DNA of 64,000 nucleotides, from contig JAFAXS010000045.1 in the NCBI GenBank assembly GCA_019240755.1, positions 1-64,000 on the forward strand. The letters run 5' to 3'. The notes under the pieces were generated by a model. The model saw only the letters and a program-made list of their open reading frames with translations, searched no databases and had not been told where the DNA came from. This document shows positions 20,660 to 25,115 of this stretch, piece by piece; the stretch's first letter is position 1; each line of letters starts with the position of its first letter. This stretch comes from Vulcanimicrobiota bacterium (lineage in GTDB: Bacteria > Vulcanimicrobiota > Vulcanimicrobiia > Vulcanimicrobiales > Vulcanimicrobiaceae). Position numbers and translations under genes: made by a program.

Positions 20660-21726
20660 GCGCGCTGCCGAAGGTTCGCCCTCATCGCTTAGGCACGCAT
20701 CGCGTGCTCGAGCCGCTCGGCGTCATGCCGCAGCAGGCGTGGCGCGTCGACAACACCCCGGTCGCGGCCGAGAATGAAATCCTCTGCGACGTGGACGTGC
20801 TCAACGTCGATTCGGCGTCGTTCAAGCAGATCGCGGACGCCTGCGACGCGGACGCCGCGCGAATCAGCGAGCACATCCTGCGGACGGTTCGCGAGCGTGG
20901 CAAACAGCACAATCCCGTGACGGGCAGCGGCGGAATGTTCGTGGGCCGCGTGCGCGAGATCGGGAAAGACCTCCGCGACCGAATCGCACTTCGCGCCGGA
21001 GATCGTATCGCGTCGCTCGTGTCGTTGAGCTTGACGCCGCTGCACGTCGAAGCGGTTCGCGAGGTCGACGTCGCAACCGGGCGCATCTGGGTGACGGCGA
21101 AAGCAATTCTGTTCGAAAGCGGTATTTGGGCGCGCCTGCCGGAGGACATCGATGAAAATGTCGCGCTCGCGGTGCTAGACGTCGCCGGCGCTCCCGCACA
21201 GGTGCCGCGGCTCTGCGCTCCCGGTCAAACGGTCGTCGTGATCGGTGCGGCCGGCAAGAGCGGCCTCTTCTCGTGCGCGCAGGCGAAGGCGTGCGTCGGC
21301 CCGAGCGGTCGCGTCGTCGGCGTCGTCCACGACGCAGCCTCGGCCGCCGCGCAACTGCTGACGCGCGCCGGTTTGGTCGACGACCTCCTCGAAGCCGATG
21401 CAACCGATGCGCTGGCTACGAGCGGCAAGGTAGAAGCCGTCGCTCCGCAGCTCGCCGACGTCACGATCAACTGCGTCAACGTGCCGGGGACGGAGCTCTG
21501 CTCGATTCTGTGCACGCGCGACGGCGGTACGATCTACTTCTTTTCGATGTCCACGTCGTTCACGGCGGCCGCGCTCGGAGCCGAGGGCATCGGCCGCGAC
21601 GTCACGATGATCATCGGAAACGGTTATGCGCGCAACCATGCCGATATCGCGCTGCAGACGCTGCGCGATCATGCCGATCTCCACGCCTATTTCAACGCGA
21701 AATACACAAAAGGAAGCACACCATGA
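20656..21726 (+). CDS. kdd: L-erythro-3,5-diaminohexanoate dehydrogenase
   Basis: Kdd catalyses NAD-dependent oxidative deamination of L-erythro-3,5-diaminohexanoate to 5-amino-3-oxohexanoate in lysine fermentation. The 356-residue protein has the family N-terminus (HRLGTHRVLEPLG, then QQAWRVDN) and the segment NPVTGSGGMFVGRV. A Rossmann nucleotide site lies at VVVIGAAGKSGLFSCAQAKA, near residue 195. It is sandwiched by ATGA overlaps between the Lrp regulator and kamA, which strongly supports the pathway assignment. The intermediate enzyme, beta-lysine 5,6-aminomutase (kamDE), and the later kce/kal genes are not in this window. Confidence 0.9.
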   Translation: MSALPKVRPHRLGTHRVLEPLGVMPQQAWRVDNTPVAAENEILCDVDVLNVDSASFKQIADACDADAARISEHILRTVRERGKQHNPVTGSGGMFVGRVREIGKDLRDRIALRAGDRIASLVSLSLTPLHVEAVREVDVATGRIWVTAKAILFESGIWARLPEDIDENVALAVLDVAGAPAQVPRLCAPGQTVVVIGAAGKSGLFSCAQAKACVGPSGRVVGVVHDAASAAAQLLTRAGLVDDLLEADATDALATSGKVEAVAPQLADVTINCVNVPGTELCSILCTRDGGTIYFFSMSTSFTAAALGAEGIGRDVTMIIGNGYARNHADIALQTLRDHADLHAYFNAKYTKGSTP

Positions 21727-23105
21727 CGACCGTAGCGGCGATCCGCCATCTCAAGCCATCCGCTGAGCCGAAGCAGTTCGAGTACAAGAACCTCAAGCAA
21801 GGCGAGTTTTGGCGCCATATTCCCGCGTACGCGGAGGTTAACGAGGCGACGTTTCTCGATCACCTGTGGCAGCAGCGTCAGTCGGTCAAGACCGCCGAAG
21901 AGTTGCTCGAGACCATTCGCGGCGTCTGCTCGCCGGAGTTCTTCCGCGACGCCGAAGCGGGCTTCCGGCAAGCGCCGATGGCAGTGCGCGTCTCGCCGTA
22001 CGCAATCTCGCTGATCGACTGGAACGACCCGGTGAACGACCCGATTCGCCGGCAATTCATTCCGCTCGCCTCGACTTCGCTGCCCGACCATCCCCGCCTG
22101 ACCCTGGACTCGTTGCACGAGCAGCAGGACTCGCCGGTGCCCGGACTCGTGCACCGCTACGTGGACAAAGCGCTGTTTCTGCCGCTCAACGTCTGTCCGG
22201 TCTACTGCCGGTTCTGCACGCGCAGCTACGCGATCGGTCCCGACACCGAAAACGTCGATAAGGTCGCCTTGGCCAAGACGCCCAAACAGTGGCAGGACGC
22301 CTTCCAGTACATTGCGGAGCGCCCGGAGCTCGAAGATATCGTCATCTCAGGCGGCGACGTGTATCAGCTGCCGCCGAAAAACATCGAGTACATCGGCAAC
22401 GCGCTGCTCGACATTCCGCACGTCCGCCGCATGCGCTTTGCCACCAAAGGCCCGGCGATCATGCCGATGAAGATCGTCACGCACGGCGAGTGGCTCGACG
22501 CGCTGACGTCGATCGTCGAACGCGGGCGCACCCTCGGCAAGGAGGTGGTGCTTCACACGCACTTCAACGCGCCCGAAGAGATTACGTGGATCACGGAGCG
22601 CGCGATGCGGATTCTCTTCGAGCGAGGAATCTTCACGCGCAATCAGTCGGTGCTGATCCGCGGCGTCAACGACAGGCGCGACAGGATGCAACTGCTCGTG
22701 AAGCGCTTGGGCCACGTCAACGTGCATCCCTACTACGTGTACATGCACGACATGGTCAAGGGCGTCGAGGAGCTGCGCACGACGATCGCTACCGCGGTCG
22801 ATACGGAGAAGTACGTGCGCGGCAGCACGGCGGGCTTCAACACGCCGACCTTCGTCTGCGACGCCCCGGGCGGCGGCGGAAAACGCGACGTGCATTCCTA
22901 CGAGCACTACGATCGCGAGAACGGCATCGCCGTCTATGCGGCGCCGAGCGTCAAACCCGGAAAAGCGTTCGTCTATTTCGATCCGATCGACAAGCTAGCG
23001 CCGGAGGCGCAGGCGCGCTGGGCCGTGCGCGAGCTTGCGGACCAAATGATTCACGAGGCGGTGCGCAAGGCCGGCGTCGGCGACGAGCAACTAGTCTTGG
23101 CCTAG
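21723..23105 (+). CDS. kamA: L-lysine 2,3-aminomutase, radical SAM and PLP enzyme
   Basis: KamA interconverts L-lysine and L-beta-lysine using a [4Fe-4S] cluster, S-adenosylmethionine and pyridoxal phosphate. The 460-residue protein carries the radical SAM motif Cys158-X3-Cys162-X2-Cys165 in CPVYCRFCTR, the glycine-rich ISGGD turn, and a PLP-binding region late in the chain (RGSTAGFNTPTFVCDAPGGGGK). The N-terminal segment (FWRHIPAYAEVNEATFLDHLWQQ) is typical of clostridial-type lysine aminomutases rather than the short EpmB form that modifies EF-P. Its position directly after kdd supports a catabolic role. It ends 4 bases before a converging gene. Confidence 0.94.
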   Translation: MTTVAAIRHLKPSAEPKQFEYKNLKQGEFWRHIPAYAEVNEATFLDHLWQQRQSVKTAEELLETIRGVCSPEFFRDAEAGFRQAPMAVRVSPYAISLIDWNDPVNDPIRRQFIPLASTSLPDHPRLTLDSLHEQQDSPVPGLVHRYVDKALFLPLNVCPVYCRFCTRSYAIGPDTENVDKVALAKTPKQWQDAFQYIAERPELEDIVISGGDVYQLPPKNIEYIGNALLDIPHVRRMRFATKGPAIMPMKIVTHGEWLDALTSIVERGRTLGKEVVLHTHFNAPEEITWITERAMRILFERGIFTRNQSVLIRGVNDRRDRMQLLVKRLGHVNVHPYYVYMHDMVKGVEELRTTIATAVDTEKYVRGSTAGFNTPTFVCDAPGGGGKRDVHSYEHYDRENGIAVYAAPSVKPGKAFVYFDPIDKLAPEAQARWAVRELADQMIHEAVRKAGVGDEQLVLA

Positions 23106-23109
23106 CGGC

Positions 23110-23761
23110 CTAGTAGCCGGTGCAGGCGCGTTGTTGGTCCGAGATCACGTGACTTCCGCCTTGCTGGTTGCCATCAACGTTGAGCTGACCGGAAGGCACC
23201 CAATAGTAGACCCACGTTTGAGAATTGTCGATCTTATCGTGGATGTGAATACTGCCGTTTGCGGTGCACAGTTGAACGTGGACTCCGCCGTCGATCTTGT
23301 TTCCGATGTCGATCCCGTTTGCTGCTCTGAACTTAACCGTAGTACACAGGCTTCCGGTGATGCCGAAGCAATCGTCGATCTTGTTTCCCAGGCTGATTGT
23401 TCCCCCGGAAACAGCAACAACGTAGCTGCTGCCGTCAATCTTTTTATCGCCGTCCCCCCCCGACGACCCCGATTCGAATGTCGCCGGCCGCATGCAAAAC
23501 CGCCGAGCTACCGCCGTCAACTTTGCCGTCGATCGTTATGGAACCGTTGGTGCTTGTCCGCGTTGCGTGGCTTCTGCCATCAATTTTTCCTTGAACGTGA
23601 ATGTCTCCGCAGCGGGACTGGTTGACGGTGCTACCGCCGTCGATGTCGCCGGTGCCCGTCCAGCCATTGCAGGGCGCTTGGCCTTGTTGCGCCGAGGCAC
23701 GGGTTCCGATGACGAGCCCGAGCGCGATGAAGGCAATGAATATGCCGATCCTAAGCTTCAT
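23110..23761 (-). pseudogene. Secreted solenoid-repeat protein gene interrupted by a frameshift at a G8 tract
   Basis: The gene starts at ATG 23761 behind an excellent AGGAGG site and a signal peptide (MKLRIGIFIAFIALGLVIG...SAQ). The first part encodes repeats of about 20-25 residues with a G-x-I-x-(I/V)-x-x-K-(I/V)-D-G pattern and stops early after about 100 residues. The same repeats continue in another frame (KKIDGSS, GNKIDDC, GNKIDGG, HDKIDNS) to the stop at 23110. The two frames join exactly at a run of eight G (23461-23454); seven G, or ten, would give one intact protein of about 216 residues. The predicted product is a secreted beta-solenoid of unknown function. It may be broken, phase-variable, or intact with a sequencing error in the homopolymer. 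Confidence 0.8.
23454..23461 (-). repeat. G8 homopolymer tract at the frameshift point
   Basis: Eight consecutive C on the plus strand (G on the coding strand) mark the spot where the reading frame of the secreted repeat protein changes. G tracts of 7-10 within genes are classic slipped-strand sites for phase variation and also classic places for sequencing errors. Removing one G restores the frame. Confidence 0.85.
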
Positions 23762-23792
23762 GTTGCTCCTCCTGGTATGCAAGCAACCTATT

Positions 23793-25115
23793 TTAGCACG
23801 CGGCGTCCCGTTTAGGCCACGTTCGCGCGCCGGCGCACATCATCACCGGGCCCGCGGGCCGGAGCGTCACGAGCGGCGCCGTCTGAAGCGAAGCGCCGGG
23901 TTCGAGCATAAAGCGAAAGCGAGTCAGCAGCGCGCTCAGCACCGTCCGGATCTCCGCGAGCGCAAACTCCTCGCCGATGCAGCGCCGCGCGCCGCCGCCG
24001 AACGGAACGTAGGCGAACGGCGGCGGGCTTTCGCCCAGCCAGCGATCCGGATCGAACTTGTCGGGCTCCGGAAAATAGTCCGCGCGTCGATGCAGCATCA
24101 ACGGCGCAAAGAATACGGTGGTTCCGGCCGCAATAGCATGGCCGTCGGCGAAGGTCACGTCGCGCAGCGCCTCTCTGCCGACGATCCAGGCAGGCGGGTA
24201 GAGGCGCAATACCTCGTTGATGACGCGTGCGATGTACTCTTCTTCGCCGCTCGATGCCGCCGCCGCAGCCTTTTCGCCGACACGCGAATGTTGGGCGAGC
24301 AGAACCAAGGCGAAGGTCAGCGCGTTCGCGGTCGTCTCGTGGCCCGCGATGAACAGCGTCATGATCTCGTCGCGAAGTTGCTCGTCCTCGTTTCGCCCCT
24401 CGACTCCGCTCGGGGTGACAAGTGCAAGGAGTTGCGAGAGCGCGTCGCCGCGGGCCGATCCGTCGGCGCGCCTTCGCGCGATGAGGTCGAAGATGATCGC
24501 GTCGAGACCTCTGCGCGCGCGCCAAAAGCGGCGCGTCCCCCCGAACGGCAACCGGGAGCGCAATGCGCCGATAGGCGTCAGCATCCACGGAAACTCGCTC
24601 ATCATCACGCGCATCGCTTGCGCCACGAGCCCCGCGGCGCTGCTCTCGTCGCTTCCGAAGAGCGATTCCGTCGCGATCCGTAGGGTGAGCTCCGTCATCG
24701 CAGCGTGCGCGTCGAACGGGAGTCCAGGGCGGACGCTGGCCGCAAACTCGTCGGCGTCGCGTCGCATGATGCGCAGATATTCGGCGATTCGTTCGCGGTG
24801 GAACGCCGGCTGGACCAGGCGGCGCATCTGCCGGTGCAGCGGTTCCTCGCTGGTCAGGAGCCCTTCACCGAGCAGCAGACGCAGCACGCGCGTGCCCAAG
24901 GACTTCGAAAACGCGTGCTGTTGCGTCACCAGGATCTCTTTGATCAGCGCGGGCTCGTTCACGAACACGTAGGATCGCCAGGGAAGCGCGAACGCGACGA
25001 GGTTGCCGTAGCGCGCCGTCATGTCGCGCAAGAAATCGGGAAAGCGCCGAAACGGCACCGGGAACAGGCGGCGAAGCGTCGTCCAGCGGCTGGGCCCCGG
25101 CAGCGGCGAACTCAC
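23793..25115 (-). CDS. Cytochrome P450
   Basis: This is a heme monooxygenase of 440 residues. The I-helix has AGHETT for oxygen activation, the K-helix has the E-X-X-R motif (EVLR), PERF-like residues occur in FDPDRW, and the heme-ligand loop FGGGARRCIG contains Cys379. There is no membrane anchor, so it is soluble and needs separate redox partners, not found nearby. The sequence near TARYGNLVAFALPWRSYVFVNEPALIKEIL resembles the CYP102/CYP110-like group acting on fatty acids or terpenoids, but the substrate is unknown. A dispersed short repeat is translated within it as TPSGVEG (around residues 233-242). It overlaps the upstream DUF2079 gene by ATGA. Confidence 0.95.
   Translation of the reverse strand: MSSPLPGPSRWTTLRRLFPVPFRRFPDFLRDMTARYGNLVAFALPWRSYVFVNEPALIKEILVTQQHAFSKSLGTRVLRLLLGEGLLTSEEPLHRQMRRLVQPAFHRERIAEYLRIMRRDADEFAASVRPGLPFDAHAAMTELTLRIATESLFGSDESSAAGLVAQAMRVMMSEFPWMLTPIGALRSRLPFGGTRRFWRARRGLDAIIFDLIARRRADGSARGDALSQLLALVTPSGVEGRNEDEQLRDEIMTLFIAGHETTANALTFALVLLAQHSRVGEKAAAAASSGEEEYIARVINEVLRLYPPAWIVGREALRDVTFADGHAIAAGTTVFFAPLMLHRRADYFPEPDKFDPDRWLGESPPPFAYVPFGGGARRCIGEEFALAEIRTVLSALLTRFRFMLEPGASLQTAPLVTLRPAGPVMMCAGARTWPKRDAAC
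24396..24420 (+). repeat. Short dispersed GC-rich repeat inside the P450 gene
   Basis: The core TCGACTCCGCT flanked by CCCC and GGGG, continuing with TGACA, is an imperfect inverted repeat. A second copy of the same core lies in the 2-oxoglutarate dehydrogenase gene near 29661-29684. It is read in frame through the P450 as an apparently inserted loop, after which the family sequence resumes. It looks like a small mobile or recombinogenic REP-like unit that has landed in coding sequence. Confidence 0.55.

Follow-up and report, generated by a model that had tools for sequence, protein, structure and literature searches.

In Campylobacter contingency genes the hypermutable element is a run of G inside the gene: strains of C. 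jejuni have 18-39 potentially phase-variable genes each, the tracts are mainly G9-G10, and tracts of eight G also slip, more often by insertion (PMC8355987). In a pilus-gene switch of Bifidobacterium breve, an in-gene run of G10-G11 joins or splits two reading frames of an exported structural protein; mixtures of tract lengths have been measured there, and tracts occur across the genus (PMC9187656). According to a prokaryote-wide survey of frameshifts, phase-variable genes turn up repeatedly, in clusters and with repeats, and unclustered, homology-validated frame breaks are recent indels or sequencing errors (PMC3711429). Here we analyse a gene for a probably exported solenoid-repeat protein whose reading frame is broken at eight G, in a 64,000-nucleotide stretch of a Vulcanimicrobiota genome (contig JAFAXS010000045.1 of assembly GCA_019240755.1; hereafter the window). 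A preliminary description had proposed a phase-variable surface gene. What the locus shows is a break, due to recent mutation or to a slip of the assembly, and not a demonstrated on/off switch.

Results

Two reading frames meet at the only G8 of the genome

On the minus strand, from 23761 to 23110, an AGGAGG motif and a 6-nt spacer precede an ATG, which is followed by a signal-peptide-like start and then by K-I/V-D-G repeats. The features of the locus are as follows.

23793..25115, minus strand: cytochrome P450 gene (Pfam p450, E 5.5e-62), co-directional with the solenoid gene and 31 bp upstream of its ATG
23768..23773, minus strand: ribosome-binding site AGGAGG, 6 nt before the ATG, read directly from the sequence
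23690..23761, minus strand: predicted Sec signal peptide, residues 1-24, MKLR...TRASA with cleavage before QQ, read by eye from the translation
23444..23761, minus strand: frame 1, N-terminal part of the solenoid gene, 105 codons, ATG at 23761, TAA at 23444-23446
23454..23461, minus strand: G8 tract at the frame junction, encoding part of a Gly-rich loop between rungs
23110..23463, minus strand: frame 2, C-terminal part of the solenoid gene, TAG at 23110-23112
21723..23105, plus strand: kamA-like gene (lysine-2,3-aminomutase-like radical SAM; Pfam LAM_C, Radical_SAM), convergent with the solenoid gene

Frame 1 reaches its stop a few codons past GGGGGGGG (23454-23461, minus strand). Frame 2, offset from it by one base, is free of stops from about 23535 down to its TAG, and direct reading of the sequence found neither a ribosome site nor a signal peptide belonging to it. 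Reading across the tract joins the two frames into 216 residues, and homology to the intact relative described below confines the frame switch to about 23468-23455, which is mostly tract. The earlier account of two frames meeting at eight G, of a 216-residue joined protein and of a strong ribosome site is thus borne out, and judged by the intact relative the two frames are one gene. A simple repeat of the hypermutable kind is placed where a change in its length changes the reading frame. The 2.58-Mb genome has no other G8 and no longer G run, and this one lies exactly at the frame switch, so that a causal link between tract and break is almost certain.

The only close homologue found is intact and lacks the tract

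We searched for homologues in 117 genomes of the class and 149 of the phylum. A single close homologue was found, in Centralia_MAG_155 (L033:3550-4224, in G046:C84), which belongs to a different family within the class. When 84,980 species genomes were scanned, with two N-terminal peptide patterns only, so that relatives may have been missed, this same record came back and no other. The relative is encoded in one intact frame of 224 amino acids and is 61% identical over its whole length, with a signal-peptide-like start. It also has the Gly-rich inter-rung loop (LVGAEGD), but where the tract would align it reads GGGGCGGAGGGC, in which no G run exceeds four. The repeat is thus not retained in the homologue, a weak comparison since it is based on one protein from another family. 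An intact, tract-less relative was what the preliminary description had named as speaking against its proposal, and the sole close homologue found is such a relative. It differs further in its surroundings, adjoining type IV pilus-like genes rather than P450 and kamA-like genes. Just before it (L033:13-3444) lies a type IV pilus-like cluster with a PilB/T-like ATPase and prepilin-like proteins, and this neighbourhood may hint at a role of the relative in an exported structure.

None of the 17 other genomes of the genus yielded the solenoid gene, and searches of viral contigs, plasmids and phages returned no relatives. Three weak matches within the same genome were rejected, lying inside a cysteine-desulfurase-like gene (L003), inside a membrane or CBS-type gene (L004) and within a 2-oxoglutarate dehydrogenase-like gene (L005); these are unrelated or chance similarities. 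A match in another genome (G008) was likewise rejected as a chance reading opposite a transporter-like gene. Elsewhere in the class, a 159-residue KIDQHS-repeat protein (L010:1390-1869, in G047) is distantly similar, belongs to no named family and has a weak FapA-like score. It shares the K-I-D repeat but is only about 30-38% identical, in pieces, and has neither the loop at the tract position nor a visible signal peptide.

Codon comparison with the intact relative gave 63% amino acid identity and a pN/pS of 0.27 for the solenoid portion of the N-terminal part, taken as far as 23468, and 65% identity over 112 codons with a pN/pS of 0.38 for the C-terminal part; the downstream half shows no decay. 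Since both halves are equally conserved and synonymous sites are near saturation, the break would be much younger than the split from the relative, unless it is absent from the cell or reversible. An undecayed downstream half is compatible with a recent mutation, and equally with an assembly error or with a switch.

The joined reading predicts an exported beta-solenoid of no named family

Read by eye, the translated N-terminus has a basic start, a hydrophobic core and an AxA-type cleavage site, and the translation contains no lipobox and no anchor, so that describing the protein as exported is a fair inference. K-I/V-D-G/D/N motifs occur at residues 38, 58, 79, 106, 127, 155 and 175 of the joined reading, giving rungs of about 20 residues, two of which are longer (27-28). 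AlphaFold2 predicted a beta-solenoid both for the joined reading, from a two-sequence alignment (pLDDT 80.3, pTM 0.78; pLDDT <50 over residues 1-29), and for the intact relative folded alone (pLDDT 69.8, pTM 0.71). The predicted structure is modelled with confidence and has short, regular strands at the rungs, as expected of a beta-solenoid.

Searches of Pfam and NCBIfam gave sub-threshold matches only. The MinC C-terminal domain (PF03775) scored 11.4 bits against a gathering threshold of 33.2, adhes_FxxPxG 16 against 60 bits, and FapA (PF03961) 6.8 bits for the relative and 15.5 bits for the KIDQHS protein against a threshold of 31. Sequence and fold searches of the PDB returned nothing confident for the solenoid protein, nor did a viral fold library. 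These results, together with the predicted fold, support the earlier view of a single exported solenoid-repeat protein, split at the G tract, that belongs to no named family.

The gene occupies a variable slot

The stop codon of the kamA-like gene lies 4 bp from that of the solenoid gene. Sister species of the genus often have the P450 and kamA-like genes side by side, and the gap between them (23105-23793 here) differs in content: it is empty at three loci (L041, L042, L048) and elsewhere is filled by unrelated genes, for a membrane protein of about 190 residues at two loci (L039, L045), a gene that by eye is Uma2-like at two more (L046, L051) and another gene at one (L047). The solenoid gene is an accessory gene at this variable slot.

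Long G runs are rare in the genome, and the G7 runs show no sign of broken genes

The window contains two overlapping matches to seven or more G, which form one run, against a mean of 4.4 in shuffles, and so shows no excess. None of the 18 further G7 runs of the genome showed signs of breaking a frame: codon usage kept to one frame across most of them, and the doubtful ones proved to be intact or to mark gene ends. On closer reading this applied to the runs in a malate synthase-like gene (L013) and in a TrmFO-like gene beside an HslV-like gene (L016), and the run at L015 lies at an ATGA stop-start overlap between two genes. With a single G8 in the genome and no sign of a break at its G7 runs, there is therefore no repertoire of G-tract genes; several tracts per genome would have supported phase variation, without strictly defining it. 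The same G7 neighbourhood is present on two contigs in opposite orientation (L020:1501 and L023:1501), an arrangement that suggests a repeat close to the ends of contigs.

Simple gene calling accounts for 94% of the window, and the Pfam domains of overlapping neighbour genes, which were potential broken genes, are complete; the assembly is therefore not riddled with indels. The G7 runs without sign of a break, together with this coverage, likewise argue against a general homopolymer problem.

Relatives in the class have between 0 and 77 overlapping G8 matches per genome, and the present genome is near the bottom of this range. Inspection of one locus of G8 or longer per relative genome revealed no clear coding frame switch, several of these loci being intergenic or at contig ends. 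Four genomes (G062, G069, G074 and G121) are rich in G8 matches, and such lineages may have G-tract switching or sequencing artefacts.

Discussion

In the reading that we tentatively regard as likeliest, an accessory gene recently suffered a slip that was probably not selected; an assembly or strain-mixture error comes close after it. The lineage would have gained the solenoid gene at the variable slot between the P450 and kamA-like genes, and its product would be a beta-solenoid protein of small size, exported by Sec. The long G run may have been built by point changes in the Gly-rich inter-rung loop, whose glycines are coded by GGG, and replication slippage within the run would recently have moved the frame by one base. 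The product of the G8 allele would then consist of the signal peptide and about three rungs, 105 amino acids in all, and the gene as read here is probably off or non-functional. Three steps in this account are inferred: the offset is present in the cell's DNA, slippage was its origin, and the gene is off. As the tract is slip-prone, both states may coexist in the population; neither the tract-less relative nor the genome-wide G-run census gives any indication of selection for switching.

The real gene may instead be uninterrupted and the consensus length wrong at the G run, an alternative that we consider credible, if less probable than a recent slip. The assembly is fragmented (174 contigs, 3.3% estimated contamination) and resembles a metagenome bin, its sole G8 sits exactly at the frame break, and the preserved downstream half is what such an error would leave. 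In addition, G tracts are hard to sequence, and a reference genome has been found to differ from the true tract length (PMC9187656), while single cases validated by homology are expected to be mostly sequencing errors (PMC3711429). Against this stand the 18 G7 runs without sign of a break and the good gene coverage of the window. The preliminary description favoured phase variation; in that reading slippage of the tract would reversibly switch an exported, perhaps surface-exposed, solenoid protein on and off, and selection would maintain the switch. The design of the locus is suggestive: the run lies within the gene, after the signal peptide and ahead of most of the mature protein, both frames are open and well conserved, and the arrangement resembles the B. 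breve pilus genes (PMC9187656). Because G8 tracts slip in C. jejuni, switching is also physically plausible (PMC8355987). However, the only homologue found lacks the tract, a lone G8 is the longest G run of the genome where C. jejuni has whole gene sets (PMC8355987), and the gene was not found elsewhere in the genus. A phase-variable surface gene is therefore not supported by the intact, tract-less homologue and the single G8; phase variation is possible but weaker than an unselected recent slip or an assembly error, and we consider it unlikely. Slightly less likely still is its specific form as a single-locus switch for an exported beta-solenoid, in which the tract has grown in an inter-rung loop and several loop lengths are tolerated.

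Two further explanations would leave the G8 allele functional. The full protein might be made from it by transcript slippage or ribosomal frameshifting, possibly aided by downstream RNA structure; the frames do switch at a slippery homopolymer, and the 91 nt downstream of the tract fold better than shuffles (z -2.9). Yet the relative encodes the same protein without a frameshift or a slippery run, no conserved set of frameshifted homologues exists, and the bases of the relative, inspected by eye in the alignment, fail to match the downstream stem, on which ground we rejected the fold as a frameshift stimulator. Recoding is thus very improbable. The other explanation, two separate functional genes, one for a short protein that is secreted and one for a C-terminal protein in the cytoplasm, draws on both frames being open, but the relative is one protein, frame 2 lacks both a ribosome site and a signal peptide, and the two halves together form one predicted solenoid. 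We give this reading the least credence of all.

If the recent-slip reading gave way to true switching, G-tract phase variation would reach into an environmental lineage that has been little studied, and an exported solenoid family without a name would stand out as deserving study. The locus also serves as a caution, as an isolated frame break at a G run, when the assembly is fragmented, has just the appearance of a contingency gene; here that appearance is weakened by the tract-less homologue and the G-run census.

Taken together, the solenoid protein shares the short-rung beta-solenoid type of the FapA and MinC C-terminal domains (PF03961, PF03775) but differs from them in scoring far under the Pfam cut-offs and in having no confident PDB fold match. 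With the Campylobacter contingency genes (PMC8355987) the locus has in common a G run inside the gene as the hypermutable element; there, many loci per genome carry mainly G9-G10, whereas here there is one G8 genome-wide. Like the B. breve pilus-gene switch (PMC9187656), it has an in-gene G run at which two frames of an exported structural protein are joined or split, but in place of the G10-G11 runs, measured length mixtures and genus-wide tracts of that system it has one G8, with none in its relative.
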